DNA of 64,000 nucleotides from Burkholderia sp. GAS332 (GTDB lineage Bacteria > Pseudomonadota > Gammaproteobacteria > Burkholderiales > Burkholderiaceae): contig FSRV01000001.1 in the NCBI GenBank assembly GCA_900142905.1, forward strand, positions 2,356,001-2,420,000, read 5' to 3'. The translations under genes and the position numbers were made by a program. The notes beneath the pieces are model-generated. The model was given only the letters and a program-made list of their open reading frames with translations. It was not told where the DNA came from and did no database searches. Below, piece by piece: positions 55,751 through 62,773 of this stretch; the stretch's first letter is position 1; each line of letters begins with the position of its first letter.

Positions 55751-55972
55751 TTATCGTGGGGTGATGTGATAACCCGGATGAAAACCCACGACGAGCGTGA
55801 TGTAGACGAGGGCGGCGAAGACGCCGGCCAGCGTGCCGAACACGTCTCTGGCACCCGCGCCGCGTCGGAATTGGATCGGAATGCCCACCAGCAGGTACGC
55901 GATCGAGAACACGATGGCGACCATCAAAGGCGGGGGCGCAAGTGAGACAACGAAGTCGGCCAATGCGCGCAT
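55751..55972 (-). CDS. Small two-helix membrane protein
   Basis: The 73-aa frame starts MRALADFVVSLAPPPLMVAI and has two hydrophobic helices (about 12-30 and 45-63, TLAGVFAALVYITLVVGF). It ends HPGYHITPR. The ribosome site is weak (CCAGGG), and a longer start at 56035 would add 21 residues. I do not recognise it. It is convergent with the MFS gene. Confidence 0.5.
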   Translation of the reverse strand: MRALADFVVSLAPPPLMVAIVFSIAYLLVGIPIQFRRGAGARDVFGTLAGVFAALVYITLVVGFHPGYHITPR

Positions 55973-56099: not shown

Positions 56100-56762
56100 T
56101 CAATGAAGCTGGGCGACCAAGGCGTCCGCACCCTTGTCGAGGCCGGTCTTCGCAGCACTCAATGAGCCGAAGGCTGCCGGCAGGTTCATCGCATTGGGAT
56201 ACTGCTTCGAAACGTAGGCCTTCAGCAGTTGGCCGCCGGCGCCGTCATAGACTTCCACGGCGTAGGAAACCGAACCGCTGAACGCCCCCTGGCCGCCTCG
56301 GATTGACTGCACGCCGTTGTAGAGATTGCCCGCAAGGTCGAAATGCATGACCTGTCCAACCAGCATCGTGGTCTTTTCGGCGCCAGTCAGTGTCAGCTTG
56401 ATCCGCAGCGTGTTAGCGCCGGGCTGCTTCGCCACACTGAACCGTGTCGCCAGTTTTTCCGAAAACGTTTTTCCCATGTAATCGGCAAGCGCGGCCCGGT
56501 CGACGTCCTTCATGTCGCCGAACTGGTTGTCATTGCCCTGATAGACGACGACCGGATCCAGCAGCACCTGTGTGTATCGCGACCAGACCACGGGGGCCGC
56601 ATAGGTGTAGGGCACCTTGCCTGAATCCTCACCGCGGTTCTGCGTCAACTGCGTCGAGGAGGAGATGCCCGTATAGGCGACCGGTTGCACACCCGCGCAC
56701 GCAGTCAAGGTCAGCACCGCCGCGGCGGTGAAAAGAAGCGGGACGAGGTTTTTCCTGAGCAT
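56100..56762 (-). CDS. DUF3313-type outer-membrane lipoprotein
   Basis: This 220-aa lipoprotein has a signal peptide with lipobox (LRKNLVPLLFTAAAVLTLTA, then C-AGVQP), so Cys near residue 22 is lipidated. The mature part (TGISSSTQLTQNRGEDSGKV, YTYAAPVVWSRYTQVLLDPV, VSYAVEVYDGAGGQLLKAYV) matches the DUF3313 group. The ATG at 56762 has AAGGAACACAAA upstream. Its promoter carries the same operator as pqiA, with -35 TTTACA and -10 TACTGT. It therefore probably belongs to the envelope-lipid regulon of the adjacent TetR regulator. Confidence 0.85.
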   Translation of the reverse strand: MLRKNLVPLLFTAAAVLTLTACAGVQPVAYTGISSSTQLTQNRGEDSGKVPYTYAAPVVWSRYTQVLLDPVVVYQGNDNQFGDMKDVDRAALADYMGKTFSEKLATRFSVAKQPGANTLRIKLTLTGAEKTTMLVGQVMHFDLAGNLYNGVQSIRGGQGAFSGSVSYAVEVYDGAGGQLLKAYVSKQYPNAMNLPAAFGSLSAAKTGLDKGADALVAQLH

Positions 56763-56830: not shown

Positions 56831-56874
56831 ACAGTAGCACCGCCGCTTTTATTTGTAAACCGTCTATCCGGCTT
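56831..56874 (-). promoter_or_regulatory. Operator and promoter of the lipoprotein gene
   Basis: AAACCGTCTATCCGGCTT (56857-56874) matches the operator at 57854-57871 in 16 of 18 positions. On the minus strand it overlaps -35 TTTACA (56854-56859, complement), followed by a 17-bp spacer and -10 TACTGT (56831-56836, complement). Bound repressor would block this promoter. Confidence 0.7.
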
Positions 56875-57054
56875 GTTTATGGGGTATTCGACACGGTACA
56901 ATTCCACTCCTCAGCGCGAACCCTCTTGAGCCGACGGTTGGCGAGCCTGCTCGCAGACCCCGATTCACTGCATCGAATGACTTGCCAAACACCCTGGCTA
57001 CGCGGCAGTTATTGGGCCAGCGCCGCAATCATCGCGATTTCATCAATATCGATA

Positions 57055-57651
57055 ATGGATAACCAGACCCGTTCGGAGATGTCCCGCAGAAGGGCGATTG
57101 AAGCCGCTTTCACCATCCTCACCCGGGAAGGTGTCGGTGGACTGACGTTCGATTCGTTGTCGCGCGAAAGCGGCATTAGTAAAGGCGGACTGCTGCATCA
57201 GTTCCGCACCAAGCAAGGTGTGCTTTGCGCGCTGCTGGAACATCAGCGGCAGCAGTTCGAGCACATGGCGCGCGACTATATGGCGAAGGAAGGTGCGTCG
57301 AAGGCCGAACCGAATCTGGCCTCCCAGATTGCAATTTATCGGGAATCCGTCAATCAGCCGCATTCCGTGGCACGCGCCATTCTCGCAGCGATTGTCGAAA
57401 ATCCGACCCTGCTTGACGACATGAAGACGTCTGACGCGGCGAAAATGAAGGCGTTGCAAGACGAAGCGACCGACCTGGATTTGTCGTTGTTGCGATACTT
57501 TGCTGCCAGCGGACTCGCATTTCACGCTCTGTTGGGATTGTCACCGTTGGGCGATTCAGATCGCAACAGGCTGTTCGACCGTCTCCTCGACGAAGAGAGC
57601 TGGCAGGCTCAGAAGGCGCCGCCAAAACGCCGTAAGCGGTCCGCGGGCTGA
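57055..57651 (+). CDS. TetR-family regulator of the lipoprotein and pqi genes
   Basis: The 198-aa regulator starts MDNQTRSEMSRRRAIEAAFT, with the HTH in TREGVGGLTFDSLSRESGIS and GGLLHQFRTKQGVLCALLEH. It ends in a basic tail (PPKRRKRSAG). The ATG at 57055 gives the usual TetR length; a frame from 56728 would add over 100 residues and cross the operator. It lies between two genes or operons that carry near-identical operators overlapping their -35 elements, so it is the probable repressor of both. The ligand is unknown. Confidence 0.87.
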   Translation: MDNQTRSEMSRRRAIEAAFTILTREGVGGLTFDSLSRESGISKGGLLHQFRTKQGVLCALLEHQRQQFEHMARDYMAKEGASKAEPNLASQIAIYRESVNQPHSVARAILAAIVENPTLLDDMKTSDAAKMKALQDEATDLDLSLLRYFAASGLAFHALLGLSPLGDSDRNRLFDRLLDEESWQAQKAPPKRRKRSAG

Positions 57652-57853
57652 CCCGACGGATCAAGGCCGAAGCGGCCGGCTGGGAACAGGCGATGTTGCG
57701 GTGAGCAGCAGCGCCATTCAGGACGCTCAACGCTGTTGAGCGCCGTGTGCGCTCGAATTTTCGGTGTCCGTAATGAATTCGCCACGCCTGGTGGCGCGAT
57801 CGCGACGGACGGCCCGCTTCAGTAGCAGCGTTTCGCGAGTCCGACTCACAAAC

Positions 57854-57897
57854 AAACCGTCTATCCGGTTTACACATTTGAATTGCAGTGTTAGGCT
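57854..57897 (+). promoter_or_regulatory. Operator and promoter of pqiABC
   Basis: The palindrome AAACCG-TCTATC-CGGTTT (57854-57871) overlaps -35 TTTACA (57869-57874). A 17-bp spacer leads to -10 TAGGCT (57892-57897). The same layout occurs in mirror image before the lipoprotein gene. The 309-bp gap between the TetR gene and pqiA holds nothing else that I can support. Confidence 0.72.
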
Positions 57898-57960: not shown

Positions 57961-59238
57961 ATGCCGACAATGAATGAAACCGAGTTAATCGCGTGTCACG
58001 AATGTGATTTGCTCCAGTGGAAGGCGCCGCTATTTGAACGCGGTACCGCGCGCTGTGCCCGATGCGGTGCGGCCCTCTACCGAAGCCTGCCGGCCACTTA
58101 CGACCGCGCTCTGGCGTTCAGCCTGGCTGCCGGGATCCTGTTCGTGGTTGCCAACTGTTTTCCGATCGTCGGACTTTGGGTCAAGGGCGCGCTCGTCGAA
58201 ACCACGCTGTTTGGGGCAGTTTCTTCGCTATATGCCGACGGTATGTGGCCCATTGCAGGTCTGGTCTTTGTGACGACGATTCTGATGCCGGCACTGAACA
58301 TCGCCGCGGTGATCTATCTACTCTTGCCGCTGCAGATTCGCGGTTTGCCCCAACGTTCCGAGATCGTGCTGCGTGTGCTGAGGCATGTCGCGCCTTGGGG
58401 AATGATCGAAGTGCTCATGCTTGCCATGCTGGTCGCGCTCGTCAAACTCCAGCACTTTGCGACCGTCGTCCCCGGCGTCGCGATTGGGTCATTTGGCGCG
58501 GTGATGGTGCTGCTCGCGGCAGCGGCTGTGTCGTTCAATCCGCGTGATATCTGGGCGCGTATCGAAAGCGTGCAAGGCGTCGACGTCGCGTCACACGTGC
58601 TAAAGGCAAGTGCCAACGTGGCTACCGCCGCACGCGCCGGTCTGTTCGTTTGTCACGACTGCGGCTTGATGTCAAAGCCGTTCGGCCATGTTCGTGGCGG
58701 GATATGTCCGCGTTGCAGCGCGGTGTTGCACCTGCGCAAGCCCAATAGCCTCGCACGCACCTGGGCATTCCTGTTGGCCGCCATGGTTCTCTATATCCCG
58801 GCTGTCCTCTTGCCAGTCATGGTCACCAGCACCTTGTTCAGCGCGCAATCCGACACGATTCTAAGCGGCGTTGTGTTTCTCTGGACCTCTGGGTCGTGGG
58901 CGCTTGCCACGATCGTTTTCATCGCCAGCATCGTGGTACCCATGCTCAAAATTCTGTCGTTAGGCTATCTCGCCTGGAGCACTCAGTTGCGCTCGTCCCT
59001 CATGCCGCGCAAGCGGACACGTATCTACCGGTGGTTGGAATTAGTCGGCCGTTGGTCGATGCTCGATATCTATGTCATCACCATTCTGGTCGCGCTCGTG
59101 CAGTTCGGTTCGGTTGCAACGATCGACGCAGGTCCCGGGTCGATTGCGTTCGGCGCGGTAGTCGTGCTGACCATGTTCGCGGCGCTGTCGTTCGATCCAC
59201 GGCTCATATGGGACGCAGTGGGGTCGGACAGTGAATGA
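57961..59238 (+). CDS. pqiA: PqiA-type membrane protein
   Basis: This 425-aa inner-membrane protein has two repeats. Each starts with a zinc-ribbon-like Cys pair set (C12/C15 with CARCGA; later CHDCGLMSK with CPRCSA) followed by four predicted helices. This is the PqiA/YebS pattern of the MCE lipid-transport system, where PqiA anchors PqiB at the inner membrane. The start at 57961 (ATG) is used; ATG at 57970 is possible. It overlaps pqiB by 8 bp, so the operon is tightly coupled. A TetR operator covers its promoter. Confidence 0.9.
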   Translation: MPTMNETELIACHECDLLQWKAPLFERGTARCARCGAALYRSLPATYDRALAFSLAAGILFVVANCFPIVGLWVKGALVETTLFGAVSSLYADGMWPIAGLVFVTTILMPALNIAAVIYLLLPLQIRGLPQRSEIVLRVLRHVAPWGMIEVLMLAMLVALVKLQHFATVVPGVAIGSFGAVMVLLAAAAVSFNPRDIWARIESVQGVDVASHVLKASANVATAARAGLFVCHDCGLMSKPFGHVRGGICPRCSAVLHLRKPNSLARTWAFLLAAMVLYIPAVLLPVMVTSTLFSAQSDTILSGVVFLWTSGSWALATIVFIASIVVPMLKILSLGYLAWSTQLRSSLMPRKRTRIYRWLELVGRWSMLDIYVITILVALVQFGSVATIDAGPGSIAFGAVVVLTMFAALSFDPRLIWDAVGSDSE

Positions 59239-60856
59239 GTCGCCCGGGCAGATCGATGAGCAAAGTGCGGCCATCTTCCCAGCAGCCGTTGCCGCCAAAC
59301 AATCGAAGTGGCGCCTGCAGCTGGTGTGGGTGGTGCCGATTGTCGCACTCCTGATAGCCGGCTGGCTGGTCGTGCAATCCGTCATGAAAAATGGCCCAAC
59401 CATCACGATCAGATTTTCGACCGGTGAAGGCATTGAGGCAGGCAAGACGAAGATCAAGTTCAAGAATGTCGATGTCGGTGTGATCAAAAGCGTCGAACTT
59501 TCCGACGATCACAAGACCGTGATTGCGAGCGCCGACATGTCCCGCAACGCTTCCAGCATGCTCGTCGACGATACCCGTTTCTGGGTCGTTCGGCCGCGCA
59601 TCTCCGGAGGAACGGTATCGGGCATCGGGACGTTGCTGTCCGGGTCCCACATCGGCATGGACATCGGGACGGCGCAGAAAGCGCGCAGCGATTTCGTCGG
59701 ACTTGAGTCGCCACCGGTCCTGGCCTCGGGGGCACCCGGACGAGAGTTCGTGCTTAAAAGCGACAACCTGGGCTCGCTCGATGTCGGTTCGCCCGTATTC
59801 TTCCGGCGGCTCCAGGTCGGTCAGATCGTTTCCTTCGCGCTTGATCCTGAGGGTGCGGGCATGATCATCCATGTCTTTGTCAATGCGCCTTACGACCGCT
59901 ACGTGACGAGCGATACCCGCTTCTGGCACGCAAGCGGTGTGGATGTGACGCTGGATACGACCGGTGTAAAGGTCAACACCGAATCGCTGGTGTCAGTCCT
60001 GATTGGCGGCCTTGCATTCGAGAATCCATCTGGCGCGACGAACAGGGTTGAAGCAGACGCGCAGCATCAGTACGACCTTTTCGCAGGGCGAGCTGAGGCA
60101 ATGAAGGAGCATGACGCGATCGTCGACAAGTACGTGCTGAATTTCAAAGAGTCTGTGCGCGGGTTGACTGTCGGGGCGCCCATTGACTTCCGTGGGATAG
60201 TGATCGGCGAGGTCTCGGCGATCAACACGCACTTTGACCCAGCGACAAAGGAATTCAGTATCCCCGTCGAGGTCAGCATTTTTCCTGAACGCCTGATTTC
60301 ACGCGACGACTCCGGAAGCACCATTGCGCCGATACCGTCGAAGCGGAAAGAGTTTGCAGACTACCTGGTGAAAAAGGGGCTGCGGGCCCAGCTGAGGACG
60401 GCGAGTCTGCTGACGGGTCAACTCTATATCGCGATCGATTTCTTTCCTTCGGCGCCGAAGGCAACCGTCGACTGGCGTACAAAGACGCCCCAACTGCCAA
60501 CGGTACCGGGCAACCTGCAGGGCTTACAGGACTCCATCACAAGTCTGGTCGCCAAGCTGAACAAGATCCCGTTTGAAGGAATCGGCAACGACCTGCGCAA
60601 AACGCTCAATGACGCGGATACGCTGATGAATACGATCAATACCGACGTGGCGCCCGAGGCAAAAGCGACGCTGGCCACAGCACGTGAAGCGCTCACGTCA
60701 GCGAATCGCGCGTTGCAAAGCGACTCGCCGTTGCAGCAAAGCACGGCGGACACCATGCGCGAGTTGTCGCGAACAGCCGCCTCGTTCCGCGCGCTGTCGG
60801 AGTATCTCCAACGCCATCCAGAAGCGCTGCTCCGTGGCAAGACCGAGGACAGGTGA
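59231..60856 (+). CDS. pqiB: PqiB-type MCE protein
   Basis: The 541-aa protein has one N-terminal membrane helix (VWVVPIVALLIAGWLVVQSV) and three MCE domains at about 55-145, 165-230 and 295-360 (GIEAGKTKIKFKNVDVGVIK, GSPVFFRRLQVGQIVSF, GAPIDFRGIVIGEVSAI). A C-terminal helical region (LNDADTLMNTINTD, TAREALTSANRALQ) would form the needle-like coiled tube. PqiB spans the periplasm and moves lipids between the two membranes. It starts with GTG inside the end of pqiA and overlaps the start of pqiC by one base. Confidence 0.92.
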   Translation: MNESPGQIDEQSAAIFPAAVAAKQSKWRLQLVWVVPIVALLIAGWLVVQSVMKNGPTITIRFSTGEGIEAGKTKIKFKNVDVGVIKSVELSDDHKTVIASADMSRNASSMLVDDTRFWVVRPRISGGTVSGIGTLLSGSHIGMDIGTAQKARSDFVGLESPPVLASGAPGREFVLKSDNLGSLDVGSPVFFRRLQVGQIVSFALDPEGAGMIIHVFVNAPYDRYVTSDTRFWHASGVDVTLDTTGVKVNTESLVSVLIGGLAFENPSGATNRVEADAQHQYDLFAGRAEAMKEHDAIVDKYVLNFKESVRGLTVGAPIDFRGIVIGEVSAINTHFDPATKEFSIPVEVSIFPERLISRDDSGSTIAPIPSKRKEFADYLVKKGLRAQLRTASLLTGQLYIAIDFFPSAPKATVDWRTKTPQLPTVPGNLQGLQDSITSLVAKLNKIPFEGIGNDLRKTLNDADTLMNTINTDVAPEAKATLATAREALTSANRALQSDSPLQQSTADTMRELSRTAASFRALSEYLQRHPEALLRGKTEDR

Positions 60857-61443
60857 TGCGCCGATATCAAACGTTACTTCTGACGACACTCGTGTTGACG
60901 GTGTTGGCCGGATGCGCAACGTCGCCGGCATCGAGTTTCTACACATTGAGCCCGGTTCCAGCGGTAGGGCAGCCGCAAGGCGCCGATCCGATCCTGATCG
61001 CGATCGATCCGGTGACGGTTCCCGAACTGGTCGATCGACCGCAAATCGTATCCAGGCTGGATGCGAACCGCGTCTCTATCGATGAATTCGCGCGCTGGGC
61101 CGAGCCATTGAAGAATCAGATTTCACGCGTCCTGGCTGCGGACCTCGCGCAACGCATCCCCAGCGCGATCGTCTCCAGTTATCCGCAACGGGCGGACGAA
61201 AACGCCTACCGCGTATCGGTTGACGTGCAGAGCTTCGATTCGTCGACCGACGGCACGGTGATGCTGGCGGTTATCTGGTCGGTGCGTCAGCCGAAACGAA
61301 GGGAGAGAATCAGCGGACGAACGGTTGTACACGAGCCCGTGAGCGGACCTGGCTACGACGCTCTGGTAGAGGCGCACAGCCGAGCCCTTGCGTCCGTGGC
61401 AGGTGATCTCGCCGTAGCGGCGCGCTCGGCTATGCGGCAGTGA
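60856..61443 (+). CDS. pqiC: PqiC-type lipoprotein
   Basis: This 195-aa lipoprotein has a lipobox (LVLTVLAGC, Cys about residue 19) and an ABC-type transport auxiliary (PqiC/YmbA) domain: SFYTLSPVPAV, VTVPELVDRPQIVSRLDANR, FARWAEPLKNQISRVLAADL. PqiC sits in the outer membrane and completes the Pqi bridge. The ATG at 60856 overlaps the pqiB stop (TGATG), with GAGGACAG upstream. It closes the operon; a strong hairpin follows at 61488. Confidence 0.9.
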   Translation: MRRYQTLLLTTLVLTVLAGCATSPASSFYTLSPVPAVGQPQGADPILIAIDPVTVPELVDRPQIVSRLDANRVSIDEFARWAEPLKNQISRVLAADLAQRIPSAIVSSYPQRADENAYRVSVDVQSFDSSTDGTVMLAVIWSVRQPKRRERISGRTVVHEPVSGPGYDALVEAHSRALASVAGDLAVAARSAMRQ

Positions 61444-61639: not shown

Positions 61640-62773
61640 ATGGAAATTAAGCGCGCATACCGGTTCCGGTTCTACCCAACGCCCTGGCAGGAAGTGATTC
61701 TTGCGCGGACGTTTGGATGCGCGCGCTTCGCCTATAACCACATGCTCGGGCAACGCACAGAGGCGTGGACTGAGCGGCAGGAGCGTATGGGTTATCACGA
61801 AACCTCCGCTGCGTTGACGGCGCTCAAAAAGACCGAAGAGCACGCCTGGCTAAACGAAGTAAGTTCGGTTCCCGTCCAGCAGGCGCTTCGGCATCTGCAA
61901 ACTGCGTTCGTCAACTTTTTCGCTGGGCGGGCGAAGTACCCGAATTTCAGGCGCAAGAACGGCCGGCAGTCGGCGGAATACACCGCGAGTGCTTTCAGGT
62001 GGGATGGTGCAGTACTCAGGCTGGCGAAGATGGCTGAACCGCTCGCGATCCGATGGTCACGCGCGATCCCCAAAGGCGCGAAGGTCACGACAGTCACCGT
62101 GTCGAAGGACACGGCGGGCCGATACCACGTCTCCATGCTCTGCGACGACATGGTGAGCGCGCGCCCGGTCACCGGCGGAAAGATCGGCATCGACTTGGGG
62201 CTGACCCATTTCGCGATTCTTTCGAACGGCGAGAAGATTGCCGCGCCGAATGTGTTCCGCAGGAACGAGGCGAAGCTCGCCAGGTTGTCGCGGCGTCTCG
62301 CGAAGAAACAGAGGGGCTCTGCCAATCGCAGGAAGGCAAGGCTCAAAGTTGCACGCCTGCATGCCAGGACAGCAGATTCCCGCAGGGACTTCCTGCACAA
62401 ACTTTCGACCCGGTTGATCAACGAGAACCAGCTGATCGCCATCGAAAGCCTGTCTGTCAGGAACATGCAGAAGAACCGTCGCCTGTCGAAGTCGATCAGC
62501 GATGCAGGCTGGTCCGAGTTCAGGCGGCAACTGGAGTACAAAGCGCAGTGGTATGGGCGCACGCTGATCGGTATCGACCGCTGGTATCCATCCAGCAAGC
62601 GATGCAGTGACTGCGGGCATACCGTCGCCAGGATGTCGTTGAAGGTTCGTGAATGGATGTGCCCGCAATGCGGGTCGATCCACGATCGCGACGTCAACGC
62701 TGCGCGTAATGTTCTGGCCGCCGGGCTGGCGGTGTCAGCCTATGGAGAAAGCGTAAGTCCCATGTCTCTTTGA
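61640..62773 (+). CDS. tnpB: TnpB RNA-guided nuclease (IS605 OrfB family)
   Basis: The 377-aa TnpB has an N-terminal helical domain (RAYRFRFYPTPWQEVILART) and a split RuvC domain with an intact triad: D185 (GIDLGLTHF), E269 (AIESLS) and D351 (HDRDVNAARN). The zinc finger uses C322/C325 and C341/C344. TnpB proteins cut DNA guided by an omega-RNA made from the right end of the element. No frameshift or stop is seen, so it should be functional. TTGACA (61602-61607) and TATGGT (61627-61632) form a possible promoter very close to the ATG. Confidence 0.9.
   Translation: MEIKRAYRFRFYPTPWQEVILARTFGCARFAYNHMLGQRTEAWTERQERMGYHETSAALTALKKTEEHAWLNEVSSVPVQQALRHLQTAFVNFFAGRAKYPNFRRKNGRQSAEYTASAFRWDGAVLRLAKMAEPLAIRWSRAIPKGAKVTTVTVSKDTAGRYHVSMLCDDMVSARPVTGGKIGIDLGLTHFAILSNGEKIAAPNVFRRNEAKLARLSRRLAKKQRGSANRRKARLKVARLHARTADSRRDFLHKLSTRLINENQLIAIESLSVRNMQKNRRLSKSISDAGWSEFRRQLEYKAQWYGRTLIGIDRWYPSSKRCSDCGHTVARMSLKVREWMCPQCGSIHDRDVNAARNVLAAGLAVSAYGESVSPMSL

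Follow-up and report, generated by a model that had tools for sequence, protein, structure and literature searches.

A TetR-family regulator of Burkholderia sp. GAS332 probably co-regulates a DUF3313 lipoprotein that would serve as an outer-membrane cap and a bridge of the PqiB type encoded by the neighbouring pqiABC operon. The locus lies within a stretch of 64,000 nucleotides (contig FSRV01000001.1, positions 2,356,001 to 2,420,000; below, the window) of a genome of 10.4 Mb in 3 contigs, and its features are collected in Table 1. As judged from comparison of sequences, we have little doubt that TetR acts on the two palindromic sites of the locus, and it is highly probable that it co-regulates the lipoprotein gene and pqiABC. 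That the lipoprotein works with PqiB-type bridges as a functional partner is reasonably likely.

Table 1. Features of the lipoprotein-tetR-pqiABC locus, in positions of the window.
Feature	Position	Strand	Sequence	Remarks
Operator 1	56857..56874		AAACCGTCTATCCGGCTT	18-bp palindrome, half-sites with one mismatch
Operator 2	57854..57871		AAACCGTCTATCCGGTTT	18-bp palindrome, perfect half-sites AAACCG/CGGTTT
Lipoprotein promoter	56831..56859	-		-35 TTTACA 56859-56854, 17 bp, -10 TACTGT 56836-56831
pqiABC promoter	57869..57897	+		-35 TTTACA 57869-57874, 17 bp, -10 TAGGCT 57892-57897
Probable tetR promoter	56873..56902	+		TTGTTT 56873-56878, 18 bp, TACAAT 56897-56902; touches operator 1
TetR-family regulator	57055..57651	+		198 aa; PF00440 and PF17937 above cut-off
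DUF3313 lipoprotein	56100..56762	-		220 aa; lipobox LTAC, Ala at +2; Pfam PF11769, E 2.3e-46
Small membrane-protein ORF	55751..55972	-		73 aa, downstream of lipoprotein; candidate partner
pqiA	57961..59238	+		PF04403; TIGR00155 above cut-off
pqiB	59231..60856	+		three MCE (MlaD) stretches, PF02470; NF008070 E 3e-130, under equivalog cut-off
pqiC	60856..61443	+		ABC_trans_aux lipoprotein, PF03886

A preliminary description of this DNA had placed AAACCGTCTATCCGG at 56857-56871 and again at 57854-57868. Both copies are exact and lie on the plus strand, and no third place was found in the window at up to 3 mismatches. The same description called the operators mirror images, which was loose: the two copies have the same orientation on the plus strand, and what stands is that the element is itself palindromic and that the two promoters point outward. 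The promoter geometry it had proposed, a TTTACA -35 box in the operator arm followed after a 17-bp spacer by TACTGT on the minus strand or TAGGCT on the plus strand, was recovered at both sites. When the 18-mer was searched for throughout the genome with up to 3 mismatches, 9 places were obtained: the two operators of the window, with 0 and 1 mismatch, and seven others that all have 3, no place having 2. The half-site pattern AAACCGN6CGGTTT alone is not rare, as 529 places were found in this genome at up to 2 mismatches versus 423 for the reversed control, and it is therefore conservation that argues for function. A chance repeat was ruled out by this conservation together with permuted half-site controls.

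Conservation was assessed at loci chosen by the lipoprotein alone, namely the best 80 of 249 stretches matched in a genome collection by a profile of 17 lipoproteins. These 80 loci hold 122 operator places, whereas 58 permuted half-site palindromes averaged 2.2 places and never gave more than 7. Absence of the motif from orthologous loci had been named beforehand as an outcome that would speak against the proposal; it was present at 73 of the 80 loci when operators with at most 1 mismatch in the roughly 400 bp ahead of the lipoprotein gene were counted. TetR was found at 71, and both occurred together at 69, with TetR only at 2, operator only at 4 and neither at 5. The promoter is conserved along with the operator. 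On the lipoprotein side, 70 distinct sites were compared, two-operator loci being represented by the operator with TTTAC. In 59 of them TTTAC stands at one fixed position within the operator arm, and in all 59 it is followed by TA...T after exactly 17 bp, with none at 12-16 or 18-22 bp. The aligned sites have the half-sites, the -35 box and parts of the -10 box in common, and mostly not the spacer. Where pqiABC is opposite to the lipoprotein gene, an operator precedes pqiA in all 12 relatives, in 10 of them with the same TTTACA-17 geometry. One locus with a broken lipoprotein gene, L164, was left out of the site table and of the lipoprotein tree by a score cut; on this symbiont contig (L076 and L164) the TetR, lipoprotein and PqiA genes all look broken and the operators are still recognisable.

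The association of the operator with this TetR was then followed across a genus sample of 77 genomes by means of the exact 20-base pattern AAACCGN6CGGTTTAC, a tally in which operator 1 of the window, having one mismatch, is not counted. TetR orthologues were found in 36 genomes (E <= 6.7e-39; next best 5.2e-14) and the pattern at 35 places in 31 genomes, the reversed control giving 2. All 31 pattern-bearing genomes were among the 36 with the orthologue, and none of the 41 genomes lacking it had the pattern (Fisher p 1e-16, a guide only given the relatedness of the genomes). Every one of the 35 places sits at a TetR/lipoprotein/pqi locus: 30 lie within 250 bp of the TetR gene, 4 at 735 to 4876 bp from it and close to the lipoprotein gene, and the remaining one, on a different contig from the TetR of that genome, directly before a lipoprotein-pqiABC run. 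That the palindromes are bound by some other regulator is very improbable in view of the empty count among the 41 genomes, of operators adjoining the TetR gene, and of operators lying before tetR itself in three rearranged loci, although the loci with an operator and no TetR in the stretch would fit it, as would the paralogous TetR genes with like operators in two genomes.

At the width of the family (a sample of 200 genomes) 19 genomes had the exact pattern, at 23 places in all. Matches to the reversed control numbered 15 and came from 11 different genomes; 10 of these control places lie in small genomes of one genus, so that the pattern alone is unspecific at this width. Nine of the 23 places fell at loci already in the set. 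The 14 newly fetched ones had TetR in all 14, the lipoprotein in 13 (the place without it being L210) and PqiB in 9. Since 7 of the 14, to judge by their lengths, are contigs already matched by the lipoprotein profile, the fresh part is 7 places, with TetR at 7, the lipoprotein at 6 and PqiB at 5.

The tetR gene is divergent from the lipoprotein gene in 52 of 71 loci, an arrangement in which one operator can serve both. A tetR-side promoter pair like that of the window was seen in 34 of 51 divergent sites (window included) with a spacer of 15-21 bp; because of this partial fit and the variable spacer, the tetR-side promoter is weaker than that on the lipoprotein side. Autorepression is thus likely in the divergent layout, going by the position of the sites. 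The 17 loci with tetR on the strand of the lipoprotein include the three rearranged ones, where the same type of operator and promoter stands in front of tetR. Neither the probable tetR promoter nor the small membrane ORF figured in the preliminary description.

The preliminary description had suggested looking for conserved linkage of the lipoprotein gene with pqiABC in related genomes. PqiB was found at 64 of the 80 lipoprotein loci, PqiA at 31 and PqiC at 32; all three are present together at 30 loci, PqiB stands alone at 32, 2 are mixed, and 16 have no PqiB above the threshold. In 49 of the 80, PqiA or PqiB lies no more than 1.5 kb downstream on the same strand, and some of the 30 full-set loci are single lipoprotein-pqiABC runs. 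For comparison, the 10.4-Mb genome has three PqiA genes, so that a randomly chosen point would be expected to have a PqiA within 15 kb in about 1% of cases or less. At the 32 PqiB-only loci no PqiA or PqiC was found in the stretch at E < 0.1, the contigs of L150 and L198 being too short to judge.

The two kinds of partner are separated in the PqiB tree, from which L198 with its partial PqiB was left out. This tree has two deep groups, one accompanied by PqiA and PqiC in 29 of 30 rows and the other orphan in 31 of 34. The partner label (full set versus orphan) requires 3 changes on the PqiB tree, while the same labels require 10 to 11 on the lipoprotein tree, at least 8 to 9 of them forced by well-supported branches. 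From few changes on one tree and many on the other, it appears that the lipoprotein, TetR and operator stayed constant and the PqiB partner was repeatedly swapped; the comparison of trees suggests repeated exchange of the partner behind a constant TetR, operator and lipoprotein cassette. Because the same switch, TetR and lipoprotein stand beside two kinds of bridge protein in many relatives, the lipoprotein is a promising candidate for a component that is missing from these bridges.

The proposal of the preliminary description that the lipoprotein is a fourth component of the bridge could be right, and is one of two readings. The other is that it could replace PqiC where PqiB is orphan, as 32 of the 80 loci pair it with such a PqiB and have no PqiC in sight. 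If taken to its end, namely that the lipoprotein acts solely in place of PqiC for orphan PqiB proteins and sits beside a complete pqiABC as a leftover from an earlier pairing, this second reading is unlikely. The PqiB-only loci and a predicted PqiC-like fold fit it, but 30 loci, single lipoprotein-pqiABC runs among them, keep the lipoprotein together with PqiA, PqiB and PqiC. Moreover, genes for PqiA and for ABC_trans_aux proteins are present elsewhere in all 14 genomes tested (that of the window and 13 with orphan PqiB), so that an orphan PqiB could borrow them.

Assignment of the lipoprotein to DUF3313 is secure, as PF11769 scores 158.4 bits against a curated cut-off of 26.1; its closest named relatives are from Paraburkholderia. 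The residue at +2 of the lipobox is Ala or Ser in all 17 aligned lipoproteins. The structure predicted for the single chain falls in the PelC/PqiC/TraT fold class and has a flexible loop at residues 134-160, and this predicted fold is our reason for placing the lipoprotein at the outer-membrane end of an MCE bridge. By sequence it was rejected as a PqiC homologue, since only PF11769 was found and the PF03886 profile was not reached, and sequence searches gave no solved relative at a useful E-value. At L093 and L095 (and L161, L162 and L165) the lipoprotein gene and tetR are each present twice, along with several operators; as aligned for L095, the second lipoprotein is without the loop near residues 130-160.

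Several observations weigh against the favoured reading, that TetR co-regulates a cap lipoprotein and a PqiB-type bridge. Among the 80 loci there are the 4 with an operator and no TetR in the stretch, the 2 with TetR and no operator, and the 16 without PqiB above the threshold, and most loci belong to one family and are not independent. Of the 17 loci with tetR on the strand of the lipoprotein, 14 have no operator before tetR, so autorepression, to judge from these layouts, would not be general. With regard to the structure, Foldseek TM-scores on the length of the model are low (0.29-0.44 among the 50 matches listed), the fold class is also common to lipoproteins with other jobs, and a comparison with the PqiC profile aligns only residues 9-44, which cover the signal peptide and the beginning of the mature chain, at a probability of 22. 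In a phylum sample of 150 genomes DUF3313 occurred at 26 places in 18 genomes, and of the 25 outside the window only one (L112) lies beside pqiABC, in a search made by tblastn with the proteins of the window, which may miss distant relatives. A general role of DUF3313 as a Pqi component is thus unsupported. The control of the DUF3313 search reported a gene of this family in E. coli. Besides L112, TetR homologues with an operator were found in this sample at L109 and L113. At L113:6957 the operator is flanked by the TetR homologue on one side and, on the other, by an ORF of about 300 residues located ahead of the lipoprotein gene; the regulon may therefore include another envelope protein.

The same absence of PqiB from 16 loci would agree with a shared regulon without a shared machine, in which TetR controls co-located envelope-stress genes and the lipoprotein does a separate job without ever contacting PqiB. 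Second operators before another gene at six Burkholderia loci (a match to DUF2059 in the two of the six that were scanned) and TetR paralogues with like operators beside small lipoprotein-like genes in two genomes, one of these genes being of the BamE kind, point the same way. We nevertheless regard this as rather unlikely, given that the PqiB partner changes from one deep group to the other while the lipoprotein is constant, that PqiA or PqiB so often follows closely on the same strand, and that the predicted fold of the lipoprotein is of the PqiC class. The PqiB-less loci are themselves of several kinds: 12 keep TetR and operator and 4 have neither, six are the Burkholderia loci just mentioned, and in two, L141 and L181, the contig ends within the locus, L181 having a PqiB fragment and PqiC.

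At the six Burkholderia loci (L142:9011, L144:9016, L145:8945, L146:9036, L148:8975 and L188:8964) the second operator is perfect and set in a perfect palindrome of about 42 bp. It lies upstream of the gene that matches DUF2059 above the cut-off in L145 and just below it in L142, and its geometry is unlike that of the TTTACA-17-TA promoters. The TetR paralogues, about 57% identical, are at L087:7774 and L088:8279, where an operator of the same type lies beside a small lipoprotein-like gene, that of L087 having a BamE domain.

Under the favoured reading, TetR would be a local repressor that binds AAACCG-N6-CGGTTT palindromes. Operator 1 lies between the lipoprotein promoter and the divergent, probable tetR promoter, touching both -35 regions, for which reason TetR probably limits its own expression; bound at operator 2, it would block the -35 box of pqiABC. 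Some ligand or envelope stress may release the repressor, upon which the lipoprotein, the 73-residue membrane ORF behind it and the PqiABC bridge would be made together. The lipoprotein would then go to the outer membrane and act there at the end of a PqiB-type MCE bridge. In the locus of the window it would do so alongside PqiC; with an orphan PqiB as partner it might take over from PqiC. A bolder version, in which the lipoprotein forms a PelC/PqiC-like ring capping PqiB-type needles and belongs to a transferable cassette of TetR, operator and cap that has repeatedly exchanged its needle, with full PqiABC in one lineage and in another an orphan PqiB lacking nearby PqiA and PqiC genes, is put forward tentatively.

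The N-terminal helix-turn-helix domain of the TetR family is clear (PF00440 29.4 bits with a cut-off of 24; PF17937 52.9 with 26.4). A gamma-butyrolactone-receptor-like type (ScbR/CprB) was discarded, as NF041196 gave 30 bits of the 150 needed and covered the N-terminal part only; the match to CprB itself (E 4e-5) spans residues 2-99. PqiA, a three-MCE PqiB and PqiC are encoded in one run in which the ORFs abut or overlap, which is a complete PqiABC system. The scores remained below the NCBIfam equivalog or exception cut-offs for the E. coli type (PqiA 278.4 bits of 562 needed, PqiB 435.5 of 525, PqiC 60.5 of 200), and the subfamily TIGR00155 was reached. A profile of the PqiC of the window with 13 related proteins matches the solved E. 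coli PqiC, 8q2c, at E 1.8e-18. Compared with L060, L064 and L065, PqiA is about 91% identical, PqiB 78-80% and PqiC 68-72%, and the operon looks as if recombinant. Directly downstream of pqiC, at 61640-62773 on the plus strand, is an IS605-type OrfB/TnpB gene. The 73-residue ORF is kept behind the lipoprotein gene in 33 of the 80 loci, resembles a two-helix membrane protein when judged by eye and gave no family in a Pfam scan; the start given is the probable one, because the upstream part contains stops in L067-L069 and orthologues show an internal start.

TetR-family local autorepressors have the regulator gene beside its target and a palindromic operator over the -35 box. The tetR of the window likewise adjoins its putative targets and has the palindrome over the -35 box; it differs in what it would control, a DUF3313 lipoprotein and a Pqi bridge. 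With PqiABC of Escherichia coli the locus shares PqiA, a three-MCE PqiB, PqiC and the gene order, and the E. coli system is reported to have three components with uncharacterised interactions (PMC10897342); here, a TetR with palindromic operators and a linked DUF3313 lipoprotein are added. The PqiC octamer, PelC dodecamer and TraT decamer are outer-membrane lipoproteins of one fold class, from which the DUF3313 lipoprotein differs in having no sequence similarity to PqiC past the signal peptide and in its flexible loop at residues 134-160; distinct differences between PelC and PqiC monomers are reported in a published account. The Mpc system of Brucella, according to its description, joins Mla-type inner-membrane parts to a PqiC homologue, and so resembles the present case as an MCE bridge with an altered partner set ending in an outer-membrane lipoprotein (PMC12436622). 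In contrast to Mpc, the lipoprotein here is of the DUF3313 family, and a PqiA gene is missing from the surroundings of the orphan PqiB. Among the papers listed by searches of an open-licence library, no title or opening of an abstract tied DUF3313 or a TetR to pqi genes.

How phospholipids pass across the periplasm through MCE bridges is an open question, and this locus names a candidate for an additional or alternative outer-membrane part. The pairing of the same lipoprotein with different PqiB types amounts to a natural experiment, and the TetR offers a handle, as its deletion or its ligand could switch the system on for study. If the cap-cassette version were true, MCE bridges would be built from modules, their outer-membrane caps being exchanged separately from the needle, and would come with a dedicated ligand-responsive switch.
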